Source: Asparagopsis taxiformis (taxonomy: Eukaryota; Rhodophyta; Florideophyceae; Bonnemaisoniales; Bonnemaisoniaceae). Taken from it: DNA of 64,000 nucleotides. Shown here one piece after another: positions 1 through 18,335 of this stretch. Where the stretch lies: positions 78,060-142,059 of the forward strand of contig JALQPE010002763.1 in the NCBI GenBank assembly GCA_030407315.1, read 5' to 3'. Below the pieces are notes generated by a model. The model was not told the DNA's origin. It did not search any database and was given only the letters and a program-made list of their open reading frames with translations. How positions within the stretch are numbered: the first letter of the stretch is position 1; the number at the start of each line of letters is the position of its first letter. Made by a program: the position numbers and the translations under genes.

Positions 1-1
1 T

Positions 2-2611
2 GCGCAGGGCTTCGGAGACGTAAATAACCCGGCGTTCGAACATTGGTCAGCTATCCCAAGTCGATTTGCAACTGAAACTAGTCCGCCAGACTCGAAGAAT
101 ATGCAGGGATGCACTGTGGACGTCCTATTCGCTTCTGCGTTTCGAAAAGCTTCGGTGGACACCAAACTTGTCATTCTAGAGCTCACTGCAATGTGGACGA
201 TGTGGAAACGTAGGAAAGGAGATGGTGGTATAAGTCTAAAGACATGCGCGCAAAAGTGGTGCTACAGCATGTGTGAAATATATGACATACTTGAGAAAGC
301 TGTACGGAAAGAAAACTCCTGGCATTCCTCACCTCATCCATGTTTCAGGAAGTTACATGAAGTACCGGAGCCAGGTGGACGAACACGAAAAACCATACGA
401 TATCGCATTTTGACTGTCCTCAAAGATTTCTATCCTTCCGACGCACCAACTGGGAGAGGTATACGTGCAGCATTGACGCGGTCTATGATGAAAGAAATCC
501 GTTATGTGGTTTTCAACGGCCCAATTCTATCGGATGACTCTCTCGACCATTCCGTCGCGCCTGAAATAGGTGTGCAGGAAAGGCGGACTAGGCGAAAATC
601 CTTGGAAGGGAATACTGCACCTCAACCACGACAACAATCCGCATCGTATGGTGATACTTCAAATGCTGCCATTGATCGCTCGGACGTGGTACAGAGTCCA
701 AATGTACTTACCCAACAGCAGACACAGGGCAGTCTGGAAATATCGGATCGTGTTAACGCTGAGGTCGGTGCTGCAACACAGGTTGGTGAAGAGGCGACAG
801 GGAAAGCGGCAGATTCCGAAAGCGCAAAGCAGGTTACAACGGACCGCGCAGTGCCTACTGCGCCTACCGAGAACAATTCTTCGAAACCTGGAGATTGTGA
901 AGTTGGGGATGTGTTGCAGAAGAACGTAGGAACTCAAGAGCTTGAACCAACTGGTGCAAATCGAGGAAGAAATGACCACGGTGATGAAAATGACCTGCAA
1001 CAATCACCTAGCCCAGTGGCAGCCGGAAGTGCCACGCTCAGACCAGAGCAGGGTGGAAAGTCGCCGGCGAATATGTCAGTTGGTCATCCAAGAACTGGTC
1101 GAGATGGTGAAGGAGGTCCTGAATCTAGGAAGAGCGATGGGTCTGGAACGAAAGATGTCCGCGAAGAATGTCCCGAACATTCTTCTGGAAGGACAACGGA
1201 GGACCCGATGAAAGGTGTACGAAATCAGGGTGATGGCACTGGAGACGCTATGTTATCTACAGCGGATGTCGGCCTACCTGTTTTACCTGAGCTGGAGGAC
1301 ACGGAAACACCTGTTACCAGTTCTACGCCTAGGAAGTTGATGAAAGCCAAGCACAGCAGTGGTTTCGTGCCCTTAAAGGCAAAGCCGAGGAATACGGAGA
1401 CGCCGCCAATGATTCTACGATCCAAACGGAAATTGGTGGATGTCACCCCTCAAGAGGTTATTGACCTGGTGGGAGAGGATACCAGCAGGCCGCGGCAGAA
1501 GAAGAAGCAAAAGATGCGTGAAGACGCAAATTTGCAATCCGGCAAAGACGCTGCAGTCCACGCGGTTCAAGGAGGTCAGTATTCGGACAGGCAACAAAAT
1601 GATGTCCCTGACAAAGATGTGGAGGAAGGTATAGAAGCGAAACTGCCTGTTATCATTCATCCCGACAGTCGAATGAAATACTATGTGAATGGGAAACTGG
1701 TCGATACGCTTCGAGCCGAGGTCGCTGAAGCAGCAGCGAGTGCCTATTCGGCACAAAATGTTTCCGCTGAGTTTCTCTCGAGGGCTTATTTCCGAGAGAA
1801 ACGAAATGAAATAGACTTGGTTGGGTTTACAATTCTGGACGGAATATTCAAGTCTTCTACTACTGCAGATGCGATCCACGAACTGCTCCTTCATTTTTCT
1901 GCGTTGTTTGAGGAACGTCTCGAGGATGCCAAGAAGAACTCTGAATCCGGTGACACCCGCAGAGATCCGGACTGGACACCGTGGTGCATGGCTATGATGG
2001 ATGGGAAAAACTCTGATGAAGAAGGTGAGAAGGGCAGAGGAATCTTTATAACAAAGCGGAAGAGCTTATGTGATGACCTCGAGGATAACAATAATAATCT
2101 CTATCGGAAGAAGATGATTGTTGAGCTCGGTCTAGGTATTTGTGCGGAAGGTTTGGAATTGAGGACTAGTGGGAAGGACCCGATGGCCTTCCCCAGCACT
2201 GGAACTACTTTAGTGCTGACTGGAGAGCGGACTAAACCTCGTGCTGGACATACAGACTATGAAGTGGGAATCGATGAAGTTAACAGTCCCCCTTCTCCGC
2301 CATCCTACTTCATGATGTCAAGCGGCGCAGATGGATTCGGCCTCGTGCTTGCACCCTACAGTCATGTCTGTTTATCCCATCCCAACAGAGAGTTATACAG
2401 AGTTCCAATGAAGAGGTGTGAAGTACCACCATATTCTGTTCTTGTCTGCCGAGGGGATGTTTATCACCACGAGGAAGGATTTGAGAGCAATAAGGGTCTT
2501 CAATACAAGTTCCCGATCCGATCTCACATATTCCTCAAAACTGAGCAGCATCAAAGTGAAGAAGGAGAATATGTCGTTGGACATTGGGAGGGCAATTCGA
2601 AATTGAAGTGA
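2..2611 (+). CDS. ParB-like / 2OG-Fe(II) dioxygenase-like fusion, 5' end outside window
   Basis: The reading frame is already open at base 2, and the residues before the first ATG (101) align with the middle of the ParB-domain protein at 3761 (AQGFGDVNNPAFEHW against AKGFRTVNNKALEFW). The true start, and probably a ParB domain, therefore lie upstream of the window. A long polar, low-complexity linker with basic clusters (RSKRKL, KKKQK) follows. The last ~300 residues look like a 2OG-Fe(II) oxygenase beta-helix: HTD at 717-719 (numbered from ATG 101), a distal His in GDVYH at 789, and Arg807 in PIRSH at the place of the 2OG-binding basic residue. The spacing matches the paralogue at 5.6-6.7 kb. 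The substrate is unknown; DNA or chromatin is inferred from the ParB part and the neighbouring methyltransferase. The dioxygenase call rests on motif spacing only. Confidence 0.7.
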   Translation, partial: AQGFGDVNNPAFEHWSAIPSRFATETSPPDSKNMQGCTVDVLFASAFRKASVDTKLVILELTAMWTMWKRRKGDGGISLKTCAQKWCYSMCEIYDILEKAVRKENSWHSSPHPCFRKLHEVPEPGGRTRKTIRYRILTVLKDFYPSDAPTGRGIRAALTRSMMKEIRYVVFNGPILSDDSLDHSVAPEIGVQERRTRRKSLEGNTAPQPRQQSASYGDTSNAAIDRSDVVQSPNVLTQQQTQGSLEISDRVNAEVGAATQVGEEATGKAADSESAKQVTTDRAVPTAPTENNSSKPGDCEVGDVLQKNVGTQELEPTGANRGRNDHGDENDLQQSPSPVAAGSATLRPEQGGKSPANMSVGHPRTGRDGEGGPESRKSDGSGTKDVREECPEHSSGRTTEDPMKGVRNQGDGTGDAMLSTADVGLPVLPELEDTETPVTSSTPRKLMKAKHSSGFVPLKAKPRNTETPPMILRSKRKLVDVTPQEVIDLVGEDTSRPRQKKKQKMREDANLQSGKDAAVHAVQGGQYSDRQQNDVPDKDVEEGIEAKLPVIIHPDSRMKYYVNGKLVDTLRAEVAEAAASAYSAQNVSAEFLSRAYFREKRNEIDLVGFTILDGIFKSSTTADAIHELLLHFSALFEERLEDAKKNSESGDTRRDPDWTPWCMAMMDGKNSDEEGEKGRGIFITKRKSLCDDLEDNNNNLYRKKMIVELGLGICAEGLELRTSGKDPMAFPSTGTTLVLTGERTKPRAGHTDYEVGIDEVNSPPSPPSYFMMSSGADGFGLVLAPYSHVCLSHPNRELYRVPMKRCEVPPYSVLVCRGDVYHHEEGFESNKGLQYKFPIRSHIFLKTEQHQSEEGEYVVGHWEGNSKLK

Positions 2612-2667
2612 TGAAGGGCATCTGTCCAGCCGTGTTGAAGCCTTAGTTGGGTATGAATCCGTAGAGT

Positions 2668-2673
2668 AATAAA
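2668..2673 (+). promoter_or_regulatory. AATAAA polyadenylation signal
   Basis: A canonical AATAAA lies 57 bases after the stop codon of the upstream ParB/dioxygenase gene, a normal distance for a eukaryotic 3' UTR. No other candidate is nearer. Confidence 0.5.
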
Positions 2674-2925
2674 CACAATTCCAATAGAACATGATAAAAG
2701 AGATACTGCATGGATTCTTTATATAGTCAGATCAACTTCACAAATGTAACAAACACCACATGCAGAAAGCTATTCTCCACAGAAAGCTCTACCTACAGGA
2801 GCTGCAAATTCTAAACCTCTTCAGTAGATGCAAGAAACGATAGCAGATAGTAAAACCTGGTATTATATTACATCGTTCACTATCCCCGGTAAAATTTTCA
2901 GTTCCTGAGAACAGGAGTCTGGCCG

Positions 2926-3312
2926 GGTATAAAGTTGGGTGGGTGTAGACCAAGTGCACCAACCCCACCCCATTGCCTGGGGGTACTGGCGGATAACCTC
3001 AGCCAATGGGCGTTGGTGCACCTGGCTTTTGGGAGGCCAAAATAATACCGGGTATTATTTTGGGTCGGTATAGACCAAGTGCACCAACCCCATTGGCCGG
3101 GGTAGCCGGATACCCTCGGCCAATGGCGTTGGTGCACCTGGCTTTTGGGAGGCCAAAATAATACCGGGTATTATTTTGGGTCGGTATAGACCAAGTGCAC
3201 CAACCCCATTGGCCGAGGTTGTCCAAACTACCACCGGCCAATGGCGTTGGTGCACCTGGCTTTTGGGAGGCCAAAATAATACCGGGTATTATTCCTAGTT
3301 TCTCAAGCCAGG
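2926..3312. repeat. Palindrome cluster A: three ~117 bp hairpin units
   Basis: Three tandem units of about 117 bp plus a leading partial copy. Each has the core AATAATACC-G-GGTATTATT at 3041-3059, 3157-3175 and 3275-3293. In the first two units the core extends to 13 bp arms (CCAAAATAATACC / GGTATTATTTTGG). Further arms pair outside it: GGCCAATGGCGTTGGTGCAC on the left is complementary to GTGCACCAACCCCATTGGCC on the right with one mismatch, so each unit can fold as a ~100 nt hairpin. The cluster lies between two tandem ParB/dioxygenase genes. The rest of 2612-3760 shows nothing else I can name. Confidence 0.9.
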
Positions 3313-3760
3313 TGCAGTGCACTCATTGGCCGAAGCCCACTTATTCGTGGTTCATGTTGAATACAGACGCATTTGGTATGTACGCATCAGCTCCACGAGT
3401 TGGTGCAAAATGCTGGGAAGTATGTGACTTCAGCATTATGTAGTTATTACTTGAGTGGTTTTGGGGTAATCACCATGACCAACTCGTACCTGTTTAGCCA
3501 CTTTGAGTATGAACTCGTCGTATAGCGATTGTATTTGGCCGCAGAAATTAACTGAATTTCGAGTATTACTCTTGATCTGAGTCAAGTGGTCTAGAAATAA
3601 ACAAAAAATTGAAATCAGAGTTGAAACGGATTGTTCACGTTTGATCCTTTATCAGACTGCAGTAGCGAAATAAATCTATCTTAATCGTCTCTGTATCGTC
3701 GTTATCGGGGTCGTACACTCAATCAAGCTTCTCTCCATTCCTGCTTTCCCTCATCCTTCA

Positions 3761-5584
3761 ATGGCTCCTCGCACTCGCTCCAAACCCTCTGCCCCCGCCC
3801 CTGCTCGCGCTTCGACTCGCGGTCGGGCCTCCGCTCGCTCTCGCGCCCCTTCTCGCTCTCGCGCCCCTTCTCGCAGCCCTGGTCACGATAACTCTGTCAC
3901 CGCCGAGGTTCAGTTGTCAGACTGTCCCAAAGCTGACCACAGGCTGTCTCCCTTGGATTTGCACAGACCCCCCCTATTCTCTCGTCATATTAGGGAAGGG
4001 AGAGTGCTTGAGCTGAAGGAGAAGTTCTTGAGGGAAGGATTCACCTCCTCAATCTCCCGAATCCTTGCCTGCAAAATGCTCCTTCCTAGTGAAGGCAGCA
4101 CAACCCCCACCCTTCAAACGTTTTACATCGATGGTGGCCATCGCGTTGCGGCTCTCCAGAAGTGCATTCGTGAAGACCCGGAAGGGCAACATCCGTATGC
4201 TGCTTCATTCAGGAACATCGATGTGGCTTTGATCAGGCGCCCAGGGACAGAAGAAGTTTCCGATGAGTACTTCACACCTTTTGAAGTACTCGGGCTGTCC
4301 ATTCAAGCAAACACACTCACACATGATGTTGCCCTTGTTTCTTTGGCAGACCGAGTGTGTTCTGTGGTCCAACTGCTCACGACCAAGGACATGCTGGGTG
4401 AACCGAATCGGAAGTGCATTCAGGTCATCATGGACAGCCAGTTGTCGATATCGAAACTGGGCTACCAAGCCATCAACAAGCACGTGACTGCTGCGAAAGG
4501 CTTCCGGACTGTGAACAACAAAGCGCTTGAGTTCTGGAGTTCCGTACCGAGCATGTTCACCAAGGAAATTCTCGCTGCGGAACAGGAAAGGGCCGTTAAA
4601 GAAGGCCGTGACATCAACGACGATGTCTTCAAGCAGTCCGTAGACATGTATGGCTGCAACATGGATCTCGTTTTCATGGCAGACTTCCGTCGCGGCTCGG
4701 AGTATCAGCAAAGGTTCATCTTGCTCATAACAGCTCTCTGGACACGCATGCGAGATCTGCGTCAGTTGAGTAGGACGACAAGAGGATTTGGTAATCCTTT
4801 CGTTCGTGTTTTGATTGAAGTTTTCAAGATGTCCGAGCCGGTTGCTGCTCACAAAATGATGGAGCCTCCGCTCGAACATTTCTACTCCGAGCTCAAGAAC
4901 ACTGGGTCAGGAAAGGAGACTGTTATTGCGAACAGTATCGCGGAGACCCTCCTGCACTTCAATACCGACGACAACAGCGGTACGAAGCATGCTCTCGTCT
5001 CCGACGAAATGTATGAGCAGCTTCGCTTTTCCACGGGCGTTGTGGACATGGAAGAAGACCAAAGGGTCATTGTTCACAATGAACAGCCATCTGAAGATGC
5101 GCCGAAGCCATCTACGCCCCAATCAGATGAGCCTTCTACCCCTTCTACCCGTTCTGGTCCTACTCCTCCTGCCCCTTCTACCCCTCCTGCTCCTCGTGCT
5201 CATTCTACCCCTTCTACTCCTTCTACCCCTTCTACCCCTTCTACTCCTGCTCCTACTACCCCTCCTCCTCCTGCCACTTCCGTTCCCGCCCCTTCCACCC
5301 CTCCTGCTACCCCTCCTCCTGCCGCTTCCGTTCCCGCCCCTTCCACCCCTCCTGCTACCCCTCCTGCTCCTGCCACTTCCGTTCCTGCAGTTGAGCAGGC
5401 TCAAGGAACCCCTGATGCCACTGTGGCAGGTTCTGAGAAGCAATTGGGATCTGTTCTCCTCCGTCTCCCTCTCAATGCACCACCGCTTGCGGTGAATGAG
5501 CCAGTCGAGACACTTCGCAGGTCGAAACGGCAGAGAACGGAGAGTCTACGGGTTGGCGACACAGTCAGGCAGAGTCGGAGGTAG
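3761..5584 (+). CDS. ParB-like domain protein, amino half of a split ParB/dioxygenase gene
   Basis: 607 residues from an ATG in good context. Residues 1-40 are a basic R/S/A/P-rich tail. A ParB/Srx-like domain follows (about 60-140), with the signature IDGGHRVAAL at 123-132 (G126-H127-R128 matches the ParB G-x-H-R loop). Residues ~150-430 are a helical region shared with the other ParB genes here. Residues ~445-565 are a Pro/Thr/Ser-rich linker encoded by a pyrimidine-rich minisatellite (5130-5390). A basic patch (RRSKRQR) comes just before the stop. TAG at 5582-5584 ends the frame, but the same frame continues into a dioxygenase-like half, and the paralogue at 2-2611 has both halves joined. 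It could be a nonsense allele, a read-through stop or a real short protein. DNA binding is inferred from ParB homology. Confidence 0.75.
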   Translation: MAPRTRSKPSAPAPARASTRGRASARSRAPSRSRAPSRSPGHDNSVTAEVQLSDCPKADHRLSPLDLHRPPLFSRHIREGRVLELKEKFLREGFTSSISRILACKMLLPSEGSTTPTLQTFYIDGGHRVAALQKCIREDPEGQHPYAASFRNIDVALIRRPGTEEVSDEYFTPFEVLGLSIQANTLTHDVALVSLADRVCSVVQLLTTKDMLGEPNRKCIQVIMDSQLSISKLGYQAINKHVTAAKGFRTVNNKALEFWSSVPSMFTKEILAAEQERAVKEGRDINDDVFKQSVDMYGCNMDLVFMADFRRGSEYQQRFILLITALWTRMRDLRQLSRTTRGFGNPFVRVLIEVFKMSEPVAAHKMMEPPLEHFYSELKNTGSGKETVIANSIAETLLHFNTDDNSGTKHALVSDEMYEQLRFSTGVVDMEEDQRVIVHNEQPSEDAPKPSTPQSDEPSTPSTRSGPTPPAPSTPPAPRAHSTPSTPSTPSTPSTPAPTTPPPPATSVPAPSTPPATPPPAASVPAPSTPPATPPAPATSVPAVEQAQGTPDATVAGSEKQLGSVLLRLPLNAPPLAVNEPVETLRRSKRQRTESLRVGDTVRQSRR

Positions 5585-6670
5585 AAGAGAGAAGAGCCCC
5601 TTCCGAAGCGCAGAAGACTGGAAGTTAACCGTACGGTTAAACGTTCAACCGAGGAGATTCCATTGTTCAGCGATGAGCAGGAAAATCCCCTCCCCGACAG
5701 GGTAGTCGATGAACGGATTATGGATATTCTCCCGAACACCATACCGTCAGACTCTAGGGTCAAGTACTATATCGACAGCAAGCTGTACGAAACAATCCGA
5801 CAGGAGATTTTGAGTGCAGCTGCTGCCGATATGAATTGTATAGCGTGCAGTGGTCCAGCTTGCTGTGCAGAGAAGTTCTTTGCAACAGCTAGGTCAACTC
5901 TCAATCTCTTGGGTGCCCATGTACTCAGTGGTATCTTCCGTTCTTCGACTGTGGGCAACGCAGCACATGAACTGTTCACGTTCTACGCCCAGAAGTTCAA
6001 ACCTGTTCATTCTTCTGCTGAAGACAGTTCCAATGATCCCTGGCATCAGATTCGAAACAAGGGTGAGGTAACAGCAGAGCAACAGGCCTCTCGTTTGGGA
6101 AGGTTCTCTATCTCAAGGAAGAAGATTTGCGACGATCTCGAGCAGATGGATGAACATCAATTCAAGAACAAGATGATTCTCGAGGTCGGCAAAGCAATCT
6201 GTGCCGAGCTAATGTACTTGGGCCTAGGAATCCATGAGCCTGTGGCCTTTCCTAAAACCGGTTTACGTCTTTTGCTGACCTCTGATGGTGCTCCAGATCA
6301 AGACTTGCACACAGACCTACCGGTGGTCATCAATGATTCCGATTTCCCACCTGGAAGATCGTACTTTCTGATGGCAAGCGCGGCTGATGGGTTCTGGCTT
6401 CGTGGAGCGTATTTCAGCCACGTCTGTTTGACGCGTGCAGACGCTGAGAAGTACAAGACGCCTGTTATGGACATCTACGTGCCACCGTATTCTCTCTTCA
6501 TCGGTCGTGGTGACTTCTACCATGGAGGCAAAGGATTCAGTAGTTCAGCGGAAAATCGCCTAACATATGGTCTTCCGGTTCGTTCTCATCTCTACCTTTT
6601 AAGTGACGAAGAAGAATTGGCGGATGCTATCGAAACAGTCAACTACTGGGATGCACCTAGTGCGCGATAA
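5585..6670 (+). pseudogene. 2OG-Fe(II) dioxygenase-like half, in frame behind a TAG
   Basis: Directly after the TAG at 5582-5584 the same frame stays open to 6670. It starts with a basic, NLS-like stretch (LPKRRRLEVNRTVKR) that would be an odd start for a separate protein. There is no ATG until 5720, and TTG at 5663 is not a credible eukaryotic start. Counting from codon 5663, the putative Fe(II) ligands are H216 and D218 (LHTDLP) and H287 (GRGDFYHGG), with R307 (PVRSH) as the likely 2-oxoglutarate anchor. These positions match the 2-2611 paralogue one for one. The catalytic residues remain intact despite the upstream stop, so the break may be recent, conditional or a base-call error. The family call is by motif pattern and needs a profile search. 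Confidence 0.65.
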
Positions 6671-7001
6671 TCTGCAAGAATACTGCTTTGCCTCTCCCTC
6701 TACAGGCAGCATCTGCCAATCCTAAGCTAGCTTCGGTAGTATACTTCCTTTACCACAACTAAATCTACTCCTATTCATGACTTTGAAAATATTAGCACGG
6801 TCAGTCTACTGCACTATTAGAGTTCCTCTACCTCTCACCCCGCATAGCTTCTACACCCTACATCGTACAGACTGATCTCTTTTCCTTTCCTACATGCATG
6901 GCACAGTTTTGCAAGACTGCCACAATTCCACATCACTCGAGTAACCAAGGTCTTGAATTGTTCTTCTTAGTATACTAACTATAGTTGAGATGCAAACCTG
7001 G

Positions 7002-7213
7002 CAGCCAATGGAATTGCTGCACCTGGCTTGCCATGCCAAAATAATACCGGTATTATTTTGGCATGGCAAAGCCCAGGTGCAGCAATTCCATTGGCTGCCG
7101 CTGCGTTCATGACAGCCAATGGCAGAGCTGCACTTGGGCTGGCCACACCCAAAATAATACCGGGTATTATTTTGGCATGGCAAAGCCCAGGTGCAGCACT
7201 ATCATTGGGCGTG
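7002..7213. repeat. Palindrome cluster B: near-perfect 96 nt hairpin plus a second copy
   Basis: The first unit (7002-7097) is a nearly perfect inverted repeat: left arm CAGCCAATGGAATTGCTGCA, and the right arm ends with its exact complement. Only two one-base bulges are seen over ~47 bp. Its centre is the perfect 18 bp palindrome AATAATACCGGTATTATT (7040-7057). The second unit (core 7153-7171, with the extra central G) has less perfect arms. The arms resemble, but are not identical to, those of cluster A. The cluster lies between the convergent 3' ends of the split ParB/dioxygenase gene and the ParB/methyltransferase/SET gene. The remainder of 6671-7357 shows nothing else I can name. Confidence 0.92.
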
Positions 7214-7357
7214 GGCTGACTGGCACCGCTCAGCAAATGAAAGTCTGTTATTATCGCTCAGGTAGATTGTAGTACTACAACGTTGTACGAGTTCAGATGC
7301 AAGACTTTTTATTGCTGATGGTACTCTTGATATCTGTAATTGGACGCCTAAACTGTC

Positions 7358-10300
7358 CTACTTCTCTGCAGTCCAGTAGCGCGATCCATAGTCAACGAAT
7401 ATCTCTTCCCCAGCTCGAACATCTACTACAACCTGCGCTAGGATGAGATCAGGTTTTGCTACTGCATACTTGAAGTCGCAAGTAGGATTGACGTCTTTGT
7501 GAACTCGGAACTCTGCATTTTTTCTGCGTTGCACATTTGCAACTCTCTCCATTCCGTCAATGGTCCTACTGTCGTTGAGGTAGCTGCAGACATTGTATTC
7601 CGCTGGTACAAGATATATCTTGTCGACCGGTGCTTCTTCTCCGATGACACTGGTCTCCATCTCCATGTTGAAGTTTTGGAATCTTTCACCAGTACAACCG
7701 AACCCGTCCGGTCCGTACAAGCGACTGCGTTGCGGTTCATTCTCCCCAATCTTCCCGTATAAAATTGTCCCATTATACCATCCAACAACAGAGCCCCTCT
7801 CTAAATCTTCTGCGGCAAAAACCCCCAATCCTCCCTCTCGAACTGTCGATGCAGCAACAATAACGTTGTGAAAGGAGGCATCTACTGCAAGCATCATCTC
7901 AGGGTCAACGGAGAAAACCTTGCCTAAATCTTCTACGCCCCATTCATTCATTGGGACTTCGGCAAGTCTTCGGAGCATGCTTTGATCCCGCGCAACAGAG
8001 GAGACAAATCGCAACATATGCAGTGGTAGTGAAGATACCGACGGGAATCCATCAGGCGCATCACTTCGATGTCGAAGTCTTTCACTTCCTACATTGCTCC
8101 TTATCGAGTAATTCCATTCTTTGTTAGCGAGAATACTCGATATGTCATTTTTGGTTGCCTCCCCAAAAACTCCATCTCGACCTTGCCTAACAAAGCAATC
8201 CAGCAACAACGGCTGAGCTGATCCATGGCATGTGGCGTCTTTTTCACATCCAATAAACTTGCGATACAGACCATCTCTCATTGTCATGCAAGCTATTGCA
8301 GTAGAATACGTTCCGGAGAATAGATCTACCACAATGTCTCCTGGCTTTGAAAACCTTGAAATAAGCTCTCGAAGTATGGACAGAGGCTTCTGCTCCGCAC
8401 GTAGCCTTTTGTCTTCGAAGTTCAATGACTCACCAGGTCCGAGCTTTGGGCAGTTGTCGATTGCGTTCACGTACCCTGGATGTCGTGAAAGGTCACGGTT
8501 ATGCAAAGAATAATCAACCATTTCAAACGCGGCAGCTCCCATCCCACGTTTGAAACTGTGCACAACAAACTCGTGAATGTTGTGTAATGAACACGATTTG
8601 TTCATTGGGTTTTGGATGAATACGTAGGGACGACGGCTTAGAATGAGAGGAACATCGTCTGTACGCATGGATTGTTCCCCGCTTTCTGCATTTTGAAGAG
8701 CTTCTCCCCACCCAACCAACTGTTTGATACTGGAAAATATCAGGGCATGTCCTCCAGGGCGCAGCATTCGAGAAATGTCCTTTCCAGTACGAAACATTTG
8801 TGCGCTATTGATGTCATCATAGTCTGAATTGGTCTTGCCTTTCTCCCTCCGCGTGTTGAAGGGTGGATCGGTGAGCACAAGTTGTGCTTGTCCATCAATA
8901 GTATTCCCTGAAAGCATGCCAATGGAATCAGTGTTAACCTGGTGCACTAACCTCGAGGCTGTACAGTTGTAAGCCACGCAAAATCTCTTCATGACCTTTT
9001 TCAATTGCACAATATGATCCGGTACCCCCTCTTCCTCACCCACTGCCTCCGCTGACGGTGTATCCTCCGCAACATCTTGCATAACCGTGTCCATTGCGGA
9101 CGAAGCCCTCCCATCCATGCTGGATGTATACTGGGATCCAGAGTCATTGGTAGGTTTCCTTCCACCTGTACCTAAACGGCGAGTGCTGTGCTGCATTGAT
9201 TCATTCGACTCAAGACGATCTCTTTCTCGAGAAAGAGATCTGGATGCTGCGTTGCGCTGTTCAGTCTCGTAGAGAATTTTCAAGTCGCAGACATCAACTG
9301 GCTTCACACGCATTTCACGGTTCCAGTTCTTCCATACCTTGAGTCTTTCGTGACCATCCAATGCGATGGATTGTTCTATTCTTGCTTCGATGAAGGCGTT
9401 CAATCCGAACCGGTCAGGCTGATGGAAAAATTTAGTGCGCAGCCCTTCCATCTGGTTCGTACTTGATCCGAATACATCAATGCCTATCATACAGTCATAC
9501 ACAGACACTAGTACGGCTTCTGTCAAAGACCTCAACCTTGCATCAACAGAGATATCCAAAGTGCCTGGATAACCTGCATTCTCGCGGAGTTTCACTACCG
9601 GGGACGGAAGCAGAAGATCTGAGTAGTGGTCAGGATGTGCCCACCCGTCAGTACGATTAGCAAGACAGATGAATTGGAATTTCTCAGAGTCGAAAACCAT
9701 GTATGGGCGACACATCATGTAGGCGCTTTCGAAGCCCAGAATCATCGCTGTTGTATCCCAGGCAGACATGACCCTTTCCAAAACGACACCCACAGACTCT
9801 CCGTTTGCTCTTGTGCGCTGGAAAGGGGCGAATGTAGAAGTCTCTGTATCCCTCCCAGTTCTACGACGCTTCCTACCCCGGCGAATGGGTGCATTTCTGC
9901 GTCTAGTGAGGGCAATGTGCACAAATGAAATCATAAACATCAGCCTTCCAAATACTTTGTCTTCTTCTGTTAATGTTCTACCCTGTGCACTTCTTCCAGA
10001 ACGAAAATACTCACAGGTGAGGACTTCGCGACACAATGGAGAAGCAATTTCACCACTTGTAGACATCCCAAACAACTGCTCGCCGACTGATGCTCTTTTC
10101 TCGAGAGATGTGGGAAACTCCTTCATCGCAAAATTGTTCTGAACTTCCACCGGCCTTCCCCATACAATACAGAACAACTGCCACAGACAGCGAACCATTT
10201 TGGGATTGGGTTCTTCTATGCGACTGTAGGGGCGAAGCACACGAAGAATTGACAAGCAACTCTCGTACTGTGGCTGCCTCAGCACAGTTTCTGCCAAATC

Positions 10301-10867
10301 TTCGCGCTGAGATCCCACGGCGAGCCATCGCCTAATGGATGGCATATTCACGTCGCGAATTGTAACCATGCTTGAGCTTCCTTGTTTTTCACCTGCGTTT
10401 CGCTCCCAGTACCCATCTCTAAGATCCAAAGTAAGATTCAGGTACTCAATGAAAGTCATCCTCTTCTGCCTGGATGCCATATCGTTCGCGTTTGATGCTT
10501 TCACACTATCTAGAAGGAAAGCAGCACTTGTAATCGGAGATATGTCGACTTCTTCTTCAATCATAGGAACAGTGAAATCACGCGGAAGCTCACCGTTCTC
10601 TATGAGCTTGATTACAGCTTTCGAACGATGCGCACCATCCAGCACCTCTACCTCACCGGCAATGATCCGACCGGTAATTGGGTTGTTGTCATTGTAGCCG
10701 TAAACCTGAATGCTCTCGGCAATAACATCGACGTGCCTGTAGTCGATTTCTCGAATCTCGACATATCTTTTGATCTTGAATGGGTCGATGTGCAATAGCC
10801 CATTGCGCCGCTCACCATGAAGGGGACGCCCAGAGGTGCTCGCTGGATTTCTCTTCTCAGAGGCCAT
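7358..10867 (-). CDS. ParB / beta-class DNA methyltransferase / SET-domain fusion protein
   Basis: One uninterrupted 1169-residue frame from an ATG. Residues ~22-110 are a ParB/Srx-like domain (VLDGAHRSKAV at 75-85). Residues ~130-530 are a helical region also present in the ParB/dioxygenase proteins. Residues ~540-615 are a polar linker. Residues ~640-905 are a DNA amino-methyltransferase in circularly permuted beta order: catalytic DPPF at 667-670 (N6-adenine or N4-cytosine class), then the AdoMet motif VVDLFSGTYST at 846-856. That motif departs from the usual DPFxGSGTT, so AdoMet binding should be tested. Residues ~1000-1169 are SET-like: GGLGVFAAEDLERGSVVGWY (1012-1031), then a Tyr/Asn/Asp stretch and AGEEIFVDYGSRYW (1152-1165), matching the C-terminal SET motif; the NHxCxPN motif is replaced by RKNAEFR. 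Predicted role: a nuclear DNA and lysine methylation enzyme recruited by its ParB domain. Beta-class DNA methyltransferases are mostly bacterial or phage, so an acquired origin is plausible. Confidence 0.82.
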   Translation of the reverse strand: MASEKRNPASTSGRPLHGERRNGLLHIDPFKIKRYVEIREIDYRHVDVIAESIQVYGYNDNNPITGRIIAGEVEVLDGAHRSKAVIKLIENGELPRDFTVPMIEEEVDISPITSAAFLLDSVKASNANDMASRQKRMTFIEYLNLTLDLRDGYWERNAGEKQGSSSMVTIRDVNMPSIRRWLAVGSQREDLAETVLRQPQYESCLSILRVLRPYSRIEEPNPKMVRCLWQLFCIVWGRPVEVQNNFAMKEFPTSLEKRASVGEQLFGMSTSGEIASPLCREVLTCEYFRSGRSAQGRTLTEEDKVFGRLMFMISFVHIALTRRRNAPIRRGRKRRRTGRDTETSTFAPFQRTRANGESVGVVLERVMSAWDTTAMILGFESAYMMCRPYMVFDSEKFQFICLANRTDGWAHPDHYSDLLLPSPVVKLRENAGYPGTLDISVDARLRSLTEAVLVSVYDCMIGIDVFGSSTNQMEGLRTKFFHQPDRFGLNAFIEARIEQSIALDGHERLKVWKNWNREMRVKPVDVCDLKILYETEQRNAASRSLSRERDRLESNESMQHSTRRLGTGGRKPTNDSGSQYTSSMDGRASSAMDTVMQDVAEDTPSAEAVGEEEGVPDHIVQLKKVMKRFCVAYNCTASRLVHQVNTDSIGMLSGNTIDGQAQLVLTDPPFNTRREKGKTNSDYDDINSAQMFRTGKDISRMLRPGGHALIFSSIKQLVGWGEALQNAESGEQSMRTDDVPLILSRRPYVFIQNPMNKSCSLHNIHEFVVHSFKRGMGAAAFEMVDYSLHNRDLSRHPGYVNAIDNCPKLGPGESLNFEDKRLRAEQKPLSILRELISRFSKPGDIVVDLFSGTYSTAIACMTMRDGLYRKFIGCEKDATCHGSAQPLLLDCFVRQGRDGVFGEATKNDISSILANKEWNYSIRSNVGSERLRHRSDAPDGFPSVSSLPLHMLRFVSSVARDQSMLRRLAEVPMNEWGVEDLGKVFSVDPEMMLAVDASFHNVIVAASTVREGGLGVFAAEDLERGSVVGWYNGTILYGKIGENEPQRSRLYGPDGFGCTGERFQNFNMEMETSVIGEEAPVDKIYLVPAEYNVCSYLNDSRTIDGMERVANVQRRKNAEFRVHKDVNPTCDFKYAVAKPDLILAQVVVDVRAGEEIFVDYGSRYWTAEK

Positions 10868-11598
10868 CGAGAAATAGATTCTTCACCTCAATCAGCCACC
10901 AGCAGAAAACAATCTTCTCTCCTACCTGCCGTTAAAAACCTTCGGCAACAATCTTGATAAACCTTAAATGCACAGTTAAAGAGTTAACCTGAATATTTTC
11001 AGGTATACTTTGGCTAGGTAGGGTACGTAATGAGGAATAATTAGGTTCTTCGGCGGCCTTTCAATACAATTATTTCGCCAACGGACATTTCCATTTTTGT
11101 TTTGAATTTGAAGTCCCCTCGAGAGATTGAGTTTGAAATCTGCCATCGGAGATTTCAAAACCAATCTCTTGAGAGGACTTCATCTTCTGTTCGAACTTGT
11201 AGACTCGTTCTTACAACCAGTATATAAATATACACATTGATTTCACTGCATCATTCTCGATCCCTGCGTCTGTTTATACATACACGTCTAGGTTCCGTTA
11301 TATTGCCACAGCGAAAAATACACCCAATCTACTGGTAATGGCTTCGAGCAGCTCGGAATAAGATCTTTATTATATGGTGATGAATGTTCAAGAGAGATGA
11401 TCATCACGATGTTGGTCTCCCATGTCGCTTGGGACAGGTGTTAGTAATTTATAACCGTTACGAGTTATGCAAGTATAAAAATAGTAACCTACCAATTTTC
11501 TCTCTATCATTCCACACGGATACAAGCTGTACAGTTTCGTCATCTTTCCTGTTTCCTCAGTCGATACCTCTTCCATTCTTTTCCTGGGAATACCCATT
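10868..11598. promoter_or_regulatory. Divergent intergenic region between the ParB/MTase/SET and 462-residue genes
   Basis: These 731 bases separate two start codons pointing away from each other, so they should contain both promoters. A TATATAAATATA stretch lies near 11220 on the + strand. A strong foldback at 11110-11181 is described separately. I see no palindrome core of the AATAATACC type here; those occur only at gene 3' ends. Confidence 0.5.
11110..11181. repeat. Imperfect 32 bp inverted repeat (hairpin) in divergent promoter
   Basis: The left arm starting GAAGTCCCCTCGAGAGATTG and the right arm ending AATCTCTTGAGAGGACTTC are complementary over 32 positions with about four mismatches, around an 8-base loop (GCCATCGG). 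Transcribed, it would form a precursor-like stem; as DNA it could be a dimeric binding site. It could also be a small foldback transposon. Confidence 0.75.
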
Positions 11599-12987
11599 AT
11601 GCAAGACCCAACAGACTTTGTCTCCGAAGGATCAGTCATTGAAGTAGAATGGAGTTTACGAACGAGAGGAAGGAAACAGAAAAAGGTTTGGTGGGGCGCC
11701 AAAGTTTTGAGTACTGCCAAGCCGGACGCGTCCGGAGAACATCGTTTGACTGGAAACTTGTTTGTTACGCTGCAATATCAATCTGAACACGGTTTCGACC
11801 AGTCAGTCTCTACAGCAAAATTATTCAAGAACAATTCGCTGCTGGACATTGACTCTGGAAACATGCTACGTTGGAGGTTTGGAGAGCAACTAGCACTAGA
11901 GCAGACGATCTCGTCTGCGGGTGAAGACAGTTTCCATAAAAAAGACTGCAAACAAAACTTGTTGAGTCGATCCAAGTCCGAGCCGCGCTTAGTTTGCGAT
12001 GAGAGTCCTCCTGGTCCTAACATCAATGAGGACATATCCAAGCTGTTTCAAAAGGTATCCTACCTCGAAAGGCAGATTCTCAACTGTCGCGGTTCATCAA
12101 GCGCTACTGGACCCATCTTCGGAAACATTGTGTGCGACTACCTGTTCCAGAGAGTTGGCTTAAAACTGGACAAACCCCTGTCCTCCAAAATCACGAAGTC
12201 TGAAACAGGCCGGGAAGTGAGCTCCTTGGTGCAAGACTATGTGACGGCAAGAGCAGATTGCTCGCTTGAACAGTTTTTACAACTTTCCAGGCTATGCGAA
12301 GAGAAGAACAACCCAAACACAATTTTCCTGCCGAGCGTCGAGGCGGTTCGAATTTCAACTGGGAGAGATAAAGAGCTATCGATCCACTTTGGAACATACT
12401 ATGACCTCTGCAATACTTTAGCTCCTTCCATGTCTACATGCACGAACTCTACTATCCTCAAGTGGAAGAAAACACGACACGATTCTGGGTCTTCTGTCAT
12501 TAGAGTTTTGGGAACTCTAGCAGACAGTGCTTCAGAAGATTTTATTCCATCTACAAAGGCTGTTCTTGTTGGTTCCTCTTTATACAGGAGATCTGAAAAC
12601 ATGAGTAGTACTGTCGTTCTTACTCGAGAATCTGATGAATACGACTATGTCAATTGCAGCTATTCGTATCCTTTGGAAGCTCGCTTCCTCTCAAGTCGAG
12701 AAATGCAGGAGAACTTTGAGCTGCCGGACAGCAAAAATTTCAAACTGGCCAACTCGTTCTCACTGACCTGGAAACCTGTTCAAGGCCCTCGTCCATATGG
12801 AACTTTCGAGCGCGTTCTCAAGAATGTTGTGTTGGGAACTGCATACTTGAACCTCCCAGCATGCATTTTCAGTGGACACACCATCTGCAGCGAGCTAGAC
12901 ACAATTGGACATGACGTTATCGTTGGACAGAATAGTTCCCCTGTCGATGCACCTCATCCTACCGTACACGATGTCGCCTCCGAGTAA
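11599..12987 (+). CDS. Unrecognised 462-residue protein, possible Tudor/SH3-like N-terminus
   Basis: Complete frame from an ATG. The first ~100 residues (IEVEWSLRTRGRKQKKVWWGAKVLS, then a strand-rich stretch ending MLRWRFGE) look like a small beta-barrel of the Tudor/PWWP type that reads methylated lysine or arginine. This is a tentative resemblance in pattern, not a match. Residues ~130-250 are helical. The rest is strand-rich, with no motif I recognise, no signal peptide and no membrane segment. It is divergent from the ParB/methyltransferase/SET gene and convergent with the 507-residue gene across palindrome cluster C, so it belongs to the same island. A reader of the mark written by the SET domain would be a natural partner, but that is speculation. 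Confidence 0.6.
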   Translation: MQDPTDFVSEGSVIEVEWSLRTRGRKQKKVWWGAKVLSTAKPDASGEHRLTGNLFVTLQYQSEHGFDQSVSTAKLFKNNSLLDIDSGNMLRWRFGEQLALEQTISSAGEDSFHKKDCKQNLLSRSKSEPRLVCDESPPGPNINEDISKLFQKVSYLERQILNCRGSSSATGPIFGNIVCDYLFQRVGLKLDKPLSSKITKSETGREVSSLVQDYVTARADCSLEQFLQLSRLCEEKNNPNTIFLPSVEAVRISTGRDKELSIHFGTYYDLCNTLAPSMSTCTNSTILKWKKTRHDSGSSVIRVLGTLADSASEDFIPSTKAVLVGSSLYRRSENMSSTVVLTRESDEYDYVNCSYSYPLEARFLSSREMQENFELPDSKNFKLANSFSLTWKPVQGPRPYGTFERVLKNVVLGTAYLNLPACIFSGHTICSELDTIGHDVIVGQNSSPVDAPHPTVHDVASE

Positions 12988-13094
12988 AACGTTTTCTATC
13001 TTTTCTAGATGGGTCTACAAGACTGTTCAGAGTTAGTCAACCTCGATTAAGTCGATGGTATCCATCGATACATGCTCCGTATCTTTCTGGCCTG

Positions 13095-13310
13095 TTCCTT
13101 CGTCCAGGGACTGTCTGCATTCTGTAACAATGATTGCCCTCCACTTGGCAAAATATCCCTGAAAATAATACCGGGTATTATTCTTAGGTTTCGTCCAGGG
13201 ATCGCCTGTAGTCGGTACGAATGATTGCCCTCCACTTGGCAAAATATTCCTCAAAATAATACCCGGTATTATTTTCCGCACTACTCTGCCAGGTGGAGCT
13301 ACGGCATTGG
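13095..13310. repeat. Palindrome cluster C: two units with the same core
   Basis: Two tandem ~91 bp units. Cores are AATAATACC-G-GGTATTATT at 13164-13182 and AATAATACC-C-GGTATTATT at 13255-13273. Flanking sequence (TGCCCTCCACTTGGCA on the left, TGCCAGGTGGAGC on the right of the second unit) forms outer arms different from clusters A and B but again complementary. The cluster lies between the convergent 462- and 507-residue genes. The rest of 12988-13594 shows nothing else. Confidence 0.9.
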
Positions 13311-13594
13311 ATGGGACTGCACAGGCCCCGAAGCTACTAGAGGCGTGCTCAATGACAGGGTAAAACTCTTAACCGTAGTAGACATGACGCTTTCTAGTCG
13401 CAGAGTGAGCTGAAAAATAAGAACGATAGCTATTGTTTCCAGTACACCATGTAGTACGTAGCATGCTAGGGTGCACCTTTTCCACTCATATCCTAGACAG
13501 TTTCATATCTAAAGGTTTCTATTTCTCCTCAGTCTGCCTCGTCGTAATTATTTTACTTCAAAGGTTATGAAACTTTACTTATCCGCTTCCATTA

Positions 13595-15118
13595 TCAATC
13601 TTCCTCATCAAGGAAAACTTCAACGTAGCTTTCACTCCCATCTTCTTCATTTCCATGTCCGCTATCCTCCTCAAACGCGGTACTACGCTGTTCCAAGTGT
13701 TGTTCATCGAATTTTTCGTTAGTAATTGTCAGTACATCTTCGCAGAGATGCCTCTTACAGATTCGGTCACTCGGCAACATCGCCTTTCCTAATTGTTTGA
13801 GCTCGTCTTGTACACTTTCTTCGAAGGTCTGACCTGATTGTACCTTGAAAATTCCTAGAATCCCGGAAGCGATTGCATAGACAAATCTGAGTGAATTGCA
13901 GGAACGTCGCAGGAAAACCATTCTACTCGTGCATTGAAGGAAAGCAATTGCAGTGTTCAGGGCTACCTCCAGGATATTGATTCTCCTTCGAATCATCCTT
14001 TTGGCCACACATCCCGATATCTCGACTTCGTACTGAATGATGACAACCATCTCTTTCCGCTCAGCGATGAATTGTATCAAGATCTCGGAATTCTTGTCAT
14101 CCACAACTTTCCGTTCCTCAGGCCTTAGATTTCCGTTGGTCACACGGGTATCGGGGATAACATCCATATCTCGAATGAGATCGTGAGTTGGAAACTCGAA
14201 AGTGATAGAGGCGTCCGTTTCCAAGACTAGAGCGAACCCCAGTTCGACAAGGAATCGATGGCGCACCTGCTCTCTAGACTTGTTCAGGAAACCGAGCACC
14301 TTTGTCAGCGCAACTTTCGTAACAGCCAAAGATATTTCACGCTTGCTCAACTGTCCACCATTTCCATCTGTTTTCCTCCGCTTCCTAGCCCCTCCGTCAA
14401 TGCTTCCTGCAGGCTGGTTTCGGCCATCGCCAGTGGCACCATAAACAACTTCTTCGATTATTTTGTCCGGAATGTACTTGTTCTCCTTCCAGACGTTGAA
14501 CGCATTCGAATCGCGTCCAGAGCTCGAGCCTTCCACTGTACGGCCTGTACCCGACTTTTCCTTCTGAATGTTCCGCAGGAGAGACATCACCACTTGGAAT
14601 CGAAGCTCGATGTTGTTCTTCCCGGTGTTGGATTGGAACACATCCCTCTTGTCATTGCTCTGCTTCGCAAACATCATTGCAGAGAGCAACCTGCAACCAC
14701 GGAGGTCGTAGATTCCTTGGTTGGTGTAAATTGTCGCCCCAGCATCAATCTTGTCGACCAGCAAAGGTACAACAGTTCCAAATACTGCACACAGAAAATT
14801 GTAAGAAAACGATAGTTCTGCTGACTGCGAGATGCGCAAACGGTCCCTGTCCTTGTCAGTCATCCCCTTCTTCGAATTGCCCTGACTCTGCTGTAATAAA
14901 CCATCACAGATGTCTTTCACACCCTGTAATTCCGTTACTATAAACTCGACGCGACTCATCAGCTTTTCGATTTGCTGGCGTTGGGACGTTCGATCATCGT
15001 CGATTTCATCCATCCTCTCCCCAATACGACGAACTTCCCCAGTCACTGTCCTGAATCCCTCTCGAATAATCCCTGCTAGGCAGTCATTTGGATTTTCCTC
15101 ACGACGCTGAGATTCCAT
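13595..15118 (-). CDS. Unrecognised 507-residue protein with coiled-coil N-terminus
   Basis: Complete frame from an ATG. Residues ~1-80 are charged and heptad-like, consistent with a coiled coil. A hydrophobic stretch (FLCAVFGTVVPLLV) lies near residue 110 but is too polar around it to call a membrane helix. A basic NLS-like KRRKTD lies mid-protein, and the C-terminus is strongly acidic (EEDSGHGNEEDG...). I do not recognise the family. It has no signal peptide. It shares its 3' intergenic region (palindrome cluster C) with the 462-residue gene, and on that ground is grouped with the ParB island. A nuclear structural or regulatory protein is possible; nothing in the sequence proves it. Confidence 0.6.
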   Translation of the reverse strand: MESQRREENPNDCLAGIIREGFRTVTGEVRRIGERMDEIDDDRTSQRQQIEKLMSRVEFIVTELQGVKDICDGLLQQSQGNSKKGMTDKDRDRLRISQSAELSFSYNFLCAVFGTVVPLLVDKIDAGATIYTNQGIYDLRGCRLLSAMMFAKQSNDKRDVFQSNTGKNNIELRFQVVMSLLRNIQKEKSGTGRTVEGSSSGRDSNAFNVWKENKYIPDKIIEEVVYGATGDGRNQPAGSIDGGARKRRKTDGNGGQLSKREISLAVTKVALTKVLGFLNKSREQVRHRFLVELGFALVLETDASITFEFPTHDLIRDMDVIPDTRVTNGNLRPEERKVVDDKNSEILIQFIAERKEMVVIIQYEVEISGCVAKRMIRRRINILEVALNTAIAFLQCTSRMVFLRRSCNSLRFVYAIASGILGIFKVQSGQTFEESVQDELKQLGKAMLPSDRICKRHLCEDVLTITNEKFDEQHLEQRSTAFEEDSGHGNEEDGSESYVEVFLDEED

Positions 15119-15436: not shown

Positions 15437-15785
15437 TCAAGGCAGTACTTGCAGGCAGTACAATTCACTGCCGGAGCCAGTATATTTTACTGCCTGATTC
15501 TAATGCCAGGTCATTTGCCAGGGCAGTACTGTACGGCAGTACATTCCATTGCAGAAATCATCAAAAATCACTGCATTGCACTACTGCCCTGTGGTACCAG
15601 CAAAAATTACTAGAATTTGCTATCGTACAGTACTGCATTCTGCTACATACCGTACTGCCAGGAAATTTTGTATTTTACTGCCTGCGGCACTAGAACTGAA
15701 AAAATTAAAATAGTAATTTTACTGCCTCAGCCACTACATTGCTCAGGCAGTGATTTTTACTGCCTCAGGCAGTAACTTTACTACA
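15437..15785. repeat. Foldback cluster built on GGCAGTA / TACTGCC
   Basis: About 350 bases contain at least ten copies of GGCAGT[A/G] or its complement TACTGCC in both orientations, with longer paired arms such as CAGGGCAGTA...TACTGCCCTG (centred near 15560). It is A/T-rich between copies and non-coding. It could be a miniature foldback element or a cluster of short inverted binding sites. It is unrelated in sequence to the AATAATACC clusters. 15119-15436 shows nothing I can name. Confidence 0.8.
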
Positions 15786-15801
15786 TTTTTTTATCTCAAA
15801 C

Positions 15802-16662
15802 TCAGTAGTGACCAGCCCCACTCCGGGTAACTTTGCCAGAAGAGGCGTACGGGTCTACAGCCGACTCGACAAGCTGAGCATTAGCTCTTTCGGCCTCTGC
15901 CCTTTCGGCTTCTGCCTTTTCGGCTTCCGCACGAGCGGCTTCGCGACGCAACTCTTCTTCCCTACGCTTACGAGCGTCCGCCAAAATCTGCTGATTGCGG
16001 CGACCATAGTCCTCGTAAGGATTCGCAGAAGCGTCACGACCAGAAGAGGTACGAACCGCAGGAGCGGAGGGACGAGCCAACGACGGCCGGGAGCTTGGCG
16101 AAGGCCTAACATTCGACTGCCTCAATGGCTTGGGCGTAGCGCCCCCCTCGGCAATAACTTCAACGACCTCTTCGGCAGCAGCCGACATAGCTCCTTTTGG
16201 AGACGGCCCGGTGGCCTTAACGGGTTCGCCTTCACGCGATGGCGGATTGGCCGATAACGGCTTGGCAGTGGCCACGGGTGTAGACGGCTTCGGGGAAGCA
16301 GGGGATTCGGTTGGACCGACGTTGCCACCTTGTGCACTTGCCCTAGCGGGAGGAACCGACTTCTCGGAGCGCGAAGGAGTCCCGACGACTTTGCCGGAAG
16401 GCGAGGCTGTCTCAGCCGAAGCCTTGGCGGCAGTCGAACGAGTTCGCGTTTGCGATGAAGCCGCGGAGGCGATCGGCGCGCTTGTCGCGGGAGGCGAAGA
16501 GGACTTGGCCGGCGTTGGCGTGGCCCCGGTGCGGGAAGAGGACGCCTGGTGGCGAGTGGTTGGGCGGCGAACGCTTAAACGCGTGGTTGGACGGTTGGGT
16601 GAACCCATATTGTCCCCTTCCTCTTCGGAGGATTCGAATTGAATCGGAGCGCGAGGGGGCAT
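15802..16662 (-). CDS. Low-complexity Ala/Pro/Ser-rich protein, possibly retroelement gag-like
   Basis: 286 residues from an ATG. Residues ~1-215 are disordered, rich in S/T/P/A with scattered Arg. Residues ~225-265 form a strongly helical E/A/R-rich segment (REEELRREAARAEAEKAEAE). No cysteine knuckle, protease or enzyme motif is seen. Base use is CG-rich like the retroelement genes to the right and unlike the genes to the left, so I place it with the mobile sequence. It could be a capsid-type protein of a truncated element or a disordered host protein. Confidence 0.45.
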   Translation of the reverse strand: MPPRAPIQFESSEEEGDNMGSPNRPTTRLSVRRPTTRHQASSSRTGATPTPAKSSSPPATSAPIASAASSQTRTRSTAAKASAETASPSGKVVGTPSRSEKSVPPARASAQGGNVGPTESPASPKPSTPVATAKPLSANPPSREGEPVKATGPSPKGAMSAAAEEVVEVIAEGGATPKPLRQSNVRPSPSSRPSLARPSAPAVRTSSGRDASANPYEDYGRRNQQILADARKRREEELRREAARAEAEKAEAERAEAERANAQLVESAVDPYASSGKVTRSGAGHY

Positions 16663-17666: not shown

Positions 17667-18335
17667 TTAATACGCACCTCGCGTGAGCGCTATAATCGCA
17701 CAACCCCCTCCGGGTAGCGATACCTTCTCTCTTACGAGACTACCCGCCGGGTACCTATAAGGTTCATCTGCTCTACCGCTTCCTCTACCGAGGCTCGGGA
17801 CACCTGTCGGGTGGTTTGCCGCTCTAGCGGATTTTCTACCTGCTACATACTCGACGTCGAATTCGAACTCGGCGAGTCGCAACCGCCAGCGCGCGAGTCG
17901 TCCTTCCGCAGAGGTCATGTTTAAGATCCAGCGCAGCGAATTGTGGTCCGTACGAACCGTGAACTTCCGTCCCTCTAGATACGCGCGTAATAGCAAAACT
18001 GCCCATACTACTGCGAGGCACTCGCGTTCCGTCGTCGAATAGTTGCCCTCCGCGTCGTTAAGCGTACGCGACCAGTATCCGACTGGATGTAGTACGTCGT
18101 CGTCCGCGTCTAACTGCAGTAACGCGCATCCGATTTGTCCCTGCGACGCGTCGGTATCGAGCACGTACGGGTGCCCTTCGCGCGGTAGGCGGAGAATAGG
18201 CGGAGACAGCATCGCTCGTCGCAATGATTCGAACGCGCGCGTTTGCTCCGGCGTCGGCGCGGGTAAGCTGTCTCCTTGGTCCTTCTTCAGCAGCTGCGTA
18301 AGCGGCGCTGCTACGAACGCGAATTTTTCAACGAA
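17667..18335 (-). pseudogene. Ty3 RNase H region of pol, in frame after TGA
   Basis: The frame continues from the RT through a TGA (18336-18338); the residues right after it (FVEKFAFVAAPLTQLLKKD) are typical of the RT-RNase H connection, so this is one broken pol gene. Visible RNase H residues are D in VLDTDAS, E in TTERECLA and D in VRTDHNSL. The final D of the usual NxxADALSR motif is absent (RAANHPTGV), so the enzyme would probably be inactive. The frame ends at 17667 without integrase. Confidence 0.8.

Follow-up and report, generated by a model that had tools for sequence, protein, structure and literature searches.

The first part of a 64,000-nucleotide stretch of the genome of the red alga Asparagopsis taxiformis (positions 78060-142059 of contig JALQPE010002763.1, called C2634 below; the whole stretch is referred to as the window) holds a gene cluster that is the right part of a multi-copy DNA transposon of the CACTA/EnSpm type, about 23.7 kb long. 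Some genes of this element encode ParB-like regions fused to a DNA methyltransferase and a SET domain, or to a putative dioxygenase, and tandem arrays of a long palindromic dyad lie at gene 3′ ends. The interpretation that we favour, with slightly more than even confidence and from sequence comparisons, is that the element encodes a self-marking system, mainly ParB-led, which would use these arrays as candidate operators. Genome-wide searches covered the 141.5-Mb assembly; C and L numbers designate contigs and individual loci. Of 13 phycobilisome matches in this assembly, 11 lie on contig C469, probably plastid unless it is a cyanobacterial contaminant, which fits a red-algal host. A bacterial source was discarded, given the size of the assembly and the gypsy-type ORFs seen by eye in the window. 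The features of the element in the window, with what each rests on, are the following.

1..2611, plus strand: orfB, 3′ part of a ParB-like and putative 2-oxoglutarate (2OG)-Fe(II) dioxygenase protein, cut by the window edge.
2923..3300, no strand: array A, tandem units of about 116 bp with three full cores, in the orfB-orfC gap.
3761..6670, plus strand: orfC, second ParB-like and putative dioxygenase protein (motifs, alignment to orfB).
7000..7215, no strand: array B, two units with 18-nt and 19-nt cores, in the convergent orfC/orfD gap.
7358..10867, minus strand: orfD, 1169 amino acids (aa), ParB - N6/N4 DNA methyltransferase - SET (profile matches).
11599..12987, plus strand: orfE, 462 aa (present in other copies of the element).
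13099..13310, no strand: array C, two 91-bp units, in the convergent orfE/orfF gap.
13595..15118, minus strand: orfF, 507 aa (open reading frame (ORF), with intact copies genome-wide).
15440..15810, no strand: right subterminal repeats (TACTGCC/GGCAGTA) and right terminus ...CTCAGTAGTG (terminus and repeat matches).
15811..16662, minus strand: right flank, an ORF split by the insertion (the flanks rejoin into one frame).

The element spans C2634:70129 (equivalent to L016:1969) to window position 15810. Its termini read CACTAC...GTAGTG, and many TACTGCC/GGCAGTA repeats are found next to them in both orientations. At 3 mismatches or fewer, 286 left ends and 250 right ends were detected genome-wide. 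A 2-bp target site duplication (TSD) flanked 10 of 11 left-right pairs, the pair on C75 having none; this sample consists of the window copy and of ten of the twelve pairs visible among the matches listed (those on C147 and C603 were left out). Such a length falls inside the range of 2-5 bp given for the CACTA group (CMCT) in the part of PMC12730594 consulted. When the empty site was rebuilt by removing the element and one copy of the 2-bp TSD, the flanks formed a stop-free frame of 951 aa, compared to 678 aa when 3 bp were dropped from the same flanks. From left to right, the element is composed of the left end with its subterminal repeats, orfA, array 0, orfB, array A, orfC, array B, orfD (opposite strand), orfE, array C, orfF (opposite strand), the right subterminal repeats and the right end. 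At least 40 copies of orfD and at least 85 copies of orfF were scored as intact, all of them full length, stop-free and 99-100% identical. Because of this, the family has probably spread recently. The element itself is autonomous-looking. A preliminary description of the window had offered, as one of two possibilities, that the cluster maintains a mobile or selfish element, and that branch is borne out.

The same description had counted seven copies of a palindromic core in the window, all in 3′ intergenic gaps, which agrees with what we find: AATAATACC-S-GGTATTATT is present exactly at 3041, 3157, 3275, 7153, 13164 and 13255, and a seventh copy, without the central base, lies at 7040. These lie 3′ of genes, in the gaps 2612-3760, 6671-7357 and 12988-13594. 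No exact core was found elsewhere in the window, 15811-64000 included; the divergent orfD-orfE gap (10868-11598) has neither core nor array. Chance palindromes were ruled out as a source, since 100 dinucleotide shuffles yielded no core, even with 3 mismatches allowed. All four gaps of the element at gene 3′ ends carry arrays, including array 0 in the orfA-orfB gap to the left of the window, which consists of two 105-bp units, with one half-core altered, and reaches about 8 units in the copy on C19. The number of full cores in array A ranges from 1 (L030, L032) to 25 (C19:27340-30161) in other copies.

Wide spread of the core without a link to ParB genes had been named in advance as evidence against the proposal. 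The exact core is indeed abundant, with 2,333 copies genome-wide, yet 45 of the 45 listed sites examined were tied to termini or genes of the element. These sites were those on contigs up to C314 among the 100 listed of 378 matches (core with a 5′ neighbour other than A), and a site was considered tied when a listed terminus lay within 25 kb of it, when a listed orfD copy was no more than 15 kb away, or when it belonged to a fetched locus. At 18 of the 45 sites, the core was 2,610-2,637 bp from the right terminus (start to start), which is the position of array C. Ten loci, holding 11 of the sites, were fetched at a stage when left ends had yet to be defined, since neither a right terminus nor an orfD copy accounted for them clearly; each of the ten contained genes of the element or their remnants, the weakest case being a 64-aa orfD remnant (L036).

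Alignment of the arrays placed the core at the centre of a larger, 93-bp dyad made of three boxes, CCAATGG-8-CACCTGG-14/15-AATAATACC-S-GGTATTATT-14/15-CCAGGTG-8-CCATTGG. Among 31 distinct arms (less than 75% ungapped identity, retained from 215 arms, with arms shifted by one base counted apart), the gap between outer boxes was exactly 8 in 28 and the spacer next to the core was 14 or 15 in 29, and 27 arms were at or above the 99th percentile of shuffled arms. Genome-wide, CACCTGG-N12..19-AATAATACC gave 3,397 matches against 0 for the reversed pattern, all 100 listed being N14 or N15, and CCAATGG-N8-CACCTGG gave 2,243 against 0.

The proteins of the element were then compared with profile and structure libraries. 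Three genes with ParB-like domains or their shared middle region had been announced in the preliminary description, and three are present: orfD is recognised by profiles, orfB and orfC by alignment and an IDGGHR motif only. In orfD, the ParB region (about 10430-10825) matched ParB-like phage profiles of PHROGs (E 6.3e-5 with the whole protein, 2.9e-6 with the domain alone), and the methyltransferase (about 8231-8884) and SET (about 7385-7831) regions matched PF01555 (1.2e-13) and PF00856 (2.2e-5) of Pfam, with TDPPF and DLFSGT motifs visible by eye. The full orfB has 1174 aa, with its start upstream of the window at C2634:77146, and a complete ORF is found at L025:602-4126. An in-frame stop of orfC would be removed by a predicted 90-nt GT-AG intron (5581-5670), giving a single 939-aa frame; three other copies inspected (L021, L034, L035) do not have the donor stretch in exact form. 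The alignable region of orfB and orfC, which includes IDGGHR, is 36% identical between the two, and an HxD...H...R pattern is conserved between their C-terminal domains, so that these are putative 2OG-Fe(II) dioxygenases. No 2OG-Fe(II) or TET/JBP profile in Pfam, NCBIfam or PDB matched that region. Of the enzymes proposed earlier, the methyltransferase and SET parts of orfD stand above Pfam cut-offs, and the dioxygenase rests on the residue pattern.

The remaining genes have fewer recognisable features. OrfA (1233 aa, left of the window) contains CHSC at 620 (C2C) and HARGMH at 651 (H4H), a motif match only to the C(2)C and H(3-4)H motifs described for CACTA-group transposases in the part of PMC12730594 consulted; no Pfam family (E≤1 with the whole protein, E≤10 with the core) and no PDB match were obtained. 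No family was matched by orfE in library profile searches. OrfF gave only Pfam matches below cut-off, none to a DNA-binding family; as a guess, it is a possible TnpA-like regulator. Protein searches with orfD, orfB and orfA, the three queries used, returned one entry apiece, 100% identical, and for two of these queries scoring was limited to the candidates with most words in common (7,988 and 7,992).

In the self-marking system that we favour, proteins of the element, most likely the ParB-like fusions, would bind the arrays as dimers, and the bound fusions would write or erase DNA and histone marks across the element. Such marking would either keep the element transcribable and mobile or limit its activity. 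In the anti-silencing version, the dioxygenases would remove marks, and the methyltransferase and SET domains would write permissive ones; self-restraint is the alternative. The system would work like VANC of the Arabidopsis VANDAL transposons, but with built-in enzymes. VANC is not known to contain a ParB, methyltransferase, SET or dioxygenase domain.

A second family of elements in the same genome bears on the question of who binds the arrays. The assembly contains at least 150 N6/N4 methyltransferase loci. One large group of them, family 2 (L061; open frames near 1,186 aa), encodes a ParB-methyltransferase-SET protein 43% identical to the orfD of the window family, or family 1. This orfD homologue is convergent with a relative of the ParB-dioxygenase proteins, and this convergent gap, the same one as in family 1, holds a 112-bp tandem array with a different palindrome, CAGCAAAGTCATCGTWACGATGACTTTGCTG (type 2, as opposed to the type-1 core), and without CCAATGG. 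At 2 mismatches or fewer, CAGCAAAGTCATCGTWACGATGACTTTGCTG has 9,734 copies genome-wide. The type-2 array begins 1,152 bp beyond the methyltransferase domain at C3, C10 and L061, and of the eight type-2 contigs listed, C3 and C10 have a methyltransferase match among the 150 scored. Identity between the two orfD proteins is 43% for ParB, 35% for the middle region, 59% for the methyltransferase and 56% for SET: the ParB and middle recognition part has diverged more than the enzymatic domains.

Across the window, 21 loci (L016-L036) and L061, the two palindrome types were never mixed within one family. L019 holds both, separated exactly at the right terminus L019:4707. A diverged ParB-dioxygenase gene at this locus was considered as a relative sharing the type-1 core, and this reading was discarded: what L019 contains is a derivative of family 1 that has inserted into an element of family 2. 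Conversely, an element with end CACTACGGTGTTG and GACAGTA subterminal repeats is nested in orfC of the family-1 copy on C19 (L024:9803, near 26.8 kb). Because type-2 arrays lie about 3.4 kb inside it, it is probably family 2, and would then be a CACTA element of the sister family, carrying a subterminal motif of its own. Since the palindromes differ between families 1 and 2, a single host factor for both arrays is hard to reconcile with the data, and a family-specific binder appears the simpler reading.

Short derivatives of the element were also informative. Two of them, 11.8 kb long (C103:10067-21753 and C192:106371-118236), are each flanked by a 2-bp duplication. Neither has any match to orfA, orfB or orfC, and orfD and orfE are reduced to remnants with stops, orfD being at about 50% identity. 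Three arrays are nevertheless kept, with cores intact, and this retention without intact ParB genes is consistent with binding in trans. It also bears on the idea that arrays are functionless, satellite-like by-products of slippage at palindromes. Unit number is variable and tandem palindromes expand easily, as this idea would have it, but boxes and spacings are common to arrays that have diverged at other positions, and cores stay intact where the orfD remnant has decayed; we regard it as very improbable. The derivatives further carry extra minus-strand ORFs between two arrays (e.g. 165 aa, ...IVFIHAQYGLGNRLRALGS...), which may be captured cargo; when 60 aa of the extra ORF were compared with Pfam, nothing matched.

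Several observations weigh against a ParB-led system, and the first of them concern the proteins. No ParB profile of Pfam, NCBIfam or PHROGs is matched by orfC, and the ParB stretch of orfB is unmatched in Pfam and PHROGs, with weak matches below cut-off such as DndB (E 0.19). A profile built from four ParB-like regions matched no ParB chain in PDB. Comparison of the orfB/orfC type with the orfD ParB region by hhalign gave an E of 0.005 but a probability of 7%, and AlphaFold2 models were too poor for use, with a pLDDT (predicted local distance difference test) of 36 for the dioxygenase region and 39 for the ParB region. The GERR-type motif, which is the CTP-binding motif of bacterial ParB, is replaced by DGAHR in orfD and IDGGHR in orfB and orfC, and no DNA-binding domain or helix-turn-helix was identified by profiles in the ParB-like fusions. 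The ParB/parS-like system put forward initially thus keeps its ParB domain, in orfD, and lacks the GERR motif expected of it. A true segregation system of the bacterial type, for which the joint presence of a ParB domain and clustered palindromes could plead, can hardly be envisaged: GERR is absent, and the context, a dispersed transposon, contradicts it.

Next, the sole gene of the element intact in both short derivatives is orfF, which is not a ParB gene. Because the derivatives keep it, orfF is the leading rival binder. Arrays would then be bound by another protein of the element, orfF or orfE being the likeliest, in a TnpA-like manner, and the ParB enzymes would be recruited or would act elsewhere. 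The ratio of nonsynonymous to synonymous substitution rates of orfF (dN/dS, 0.25 and 0.17 against the two derivatives) speaks for this, as does the joint retention of orfF and arrays while the orfD and orfE remnants have stops. However, orfF lies within the better conserved right end, the low dN/dS may predate the deletion, no DNA-binding family matches the protein, and ParB is the only domain of a DNA-targeting type identified among the accessory genes. We consider this explanation unlikely, on balance, and retain ParB-led binding.

Finally, the location of the arrays in 3′ gaps also suits a terminator role, and self-complementarity reaches 94% over the length of one unit, the first of array B (window 7000-7099), as would be seen in a hairpin. 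Arrays could be terminators, insulators or 3′-end elements read by host factors, for which the CCAAT and CACCTG boxes would be sites. They are present at all four 3′ ends and absent from the divergent 5′ gap, the extra ORF of the short derivatives likewise has an array on its 3′ side, and the array B unit forms an inverted repeat of 100 nt that is almost perfect. Pairing between arms, measured on 14 array consensuses, points in another direction: it was 0.90 for the core, 0.55 for the boxes (a figure lowered by one-base spacing variants) and 0.39 for the spacers, the latter being below what a hairpin needs although above the 0.25 of unrelated sequence. Because spacers pair so much less than the core, a protein-bound DNA dyad would suit the arms better than an RNA hairpin, and the hairpin is considered less likely as the main selected form, although the 94% unit speaks for it. 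The range of 1 to 25 full cores per array also counts against this role, and the other palindrome in the sister family gap, where CCAATGG is missing, is difficult to accommodate with one host factor. A host-read 3′ element is therefore, in our opinion, a quite unlikely explanation, less so than slippage by-products.

The association between arrays and ParB-methyltransferase genes has exceptions too, which count on the same side. Six of the eight type-2 contigs listed (C4, C7, C8, C9, C11, C12) have no methyltransferase match among the 150 scored. Families 3 and 4, found on C197 (L062:2186-5014) and C609 (L063:360-3563) with several equal-scoring loci each, show by eye a ParB-like DGxHR motif and a Cys-rich C-terminus in place of SET, and no tandem array was seen in the 5.5 kb of L062 and 6 kb of L063, which cover little 5′ sequence. 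Because these families lack arrays in the stretches read, we take arrays to accompany the SET/dioxygenase type and not every ParB-methyltransferase. On the 3′ side of L062, a retroelement-like ORF was noticed by eye.

Taking both families together, a broader proposal can be made, to which we give somewhat less than even confidence. Two sister CACTA transposons in one nucleus would each run an orthogonal, self-addressed epigenetic system, with ParB readers fused to a methyltransferase-SET writer or to dioxygenase erasers, and with private operators. Between them, the palindrome would have been replaced wholesale, the reader co-evolving with it, and the place of the array and its period of about 112-118 bp would have been kept.

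The rest of the window contains other features, most of them recognised by eye. A GC-rich, gypsy-type retroelement (17848-23457 and 27748-28556) adjoins the transposon; it includes a stretch 89% identical in L017 and an inverted pair of about 800 nt, 92% identical. Three paralogous ORFs (33469-34479, 38340-39248 and 43326-44207), with signal-peptide-like starts and Cys-rich N-terminal parts, form a local family whose DNA pieces are 66-68% identical. A 1414-aa ORF (48385-52629) has NB-ARC-like, WD40-like and TIR-like parts. An inverted pair of 752 nt, 99.7% identical (55732-56483 and 63211-63961), surrounds a Harbinger-like ORF (56563-57699) and is possibly another young mobile element.

Few systems by which transposons escape or adjust silencing by the host are understood in molecular detail. 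The published self-binding proposal for algal ParB-methyltransferases gave no target site in the portions consulted, and this locus supplies candidates, namely a 93-bp operator whose exact core exists in more than 2,000 copies, with the sister operator as a built-in control of specificity and derivatives that keep the operator without intact ParB genes. Self-addressing thereby becomes directly testable. Orthogonal, sequence-specific epigenome editors could be derived from such proteins.

Clustered palindromes and a ParB-type domain are features of bacterial ParB-parS and Noc, and the element shares both with them. It differs by DGxHR in place of GERR, by having no apparent partition context, though no search was aimed at a ParA-type partner, and by being a dispersed eukaryotic transposon. 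Maize En/Spm has TnpA, CACTA ends and subterminal repeats in both orientations. Ends and repeats are likewise found here, but the arrays are internal, made of long dyads, and their motif differs from the subterminal one.

The statement of the preliminary description that no eukaryotic equivalent was known is too strong. PMC12477816, in the part consulted, reports Sola1-1_Ec32, a 21.5-kb transposon of the brown alga Ectocarpus encoding a protein with ParB and methyltransferase domains; Iyer 2011 and Petroll 2025 are its references for ParB-methyltransferase cases in green and red algae, giant EnSpm elements of red algae that carry accessory genes are cited as well, and the idea of self-binding and self-modification is already put forward there. 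Proteins of this kind in algal transposons are thus already published. OrfD belongs with them: common to both elements are a ParB-like region and an N6A/N4C methyltransferase in one protein of about 1100 aa, in a DNA transposon of more than 20 kb. Unlike what the consulted part describes for Sola1-1_Ec32, SET is fused here, a putative dioxygenase is found in two additional ParB-like proteins, and arrays that are candidate targets are identified. For operator arrays, the palindrome switch and ParB-dioxygenase fusions, no published description was found in the portion of the literature surveyed.

Fungal DNA transposons carrying TET/JBP genes, EnSpm included, are described in PMC12730594, where, in the part consulted, the dioxygenase is thought to counter silencing. 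Our element shares with these a CMCT-type structure and a 2OG dioxygenase, putative here; this dioxygenase matched no profile, TET/JBP included, and is fused to a ParB-like region. The closest working analogue would be VANC. As described in the part of PMC5735166 consulted, Arabidopsis VANDALs also combine proteins encoded by the element with private tandem motifs in non-coding parts, which differ between families, and a private tandem non-coding motif differing between related families is what we find in families 1 and 2. VANDALs are MuDR-type elements with a short YAGTATTAY motif in one orientation, whereas here the element is CACTA and the motif a long dyad.

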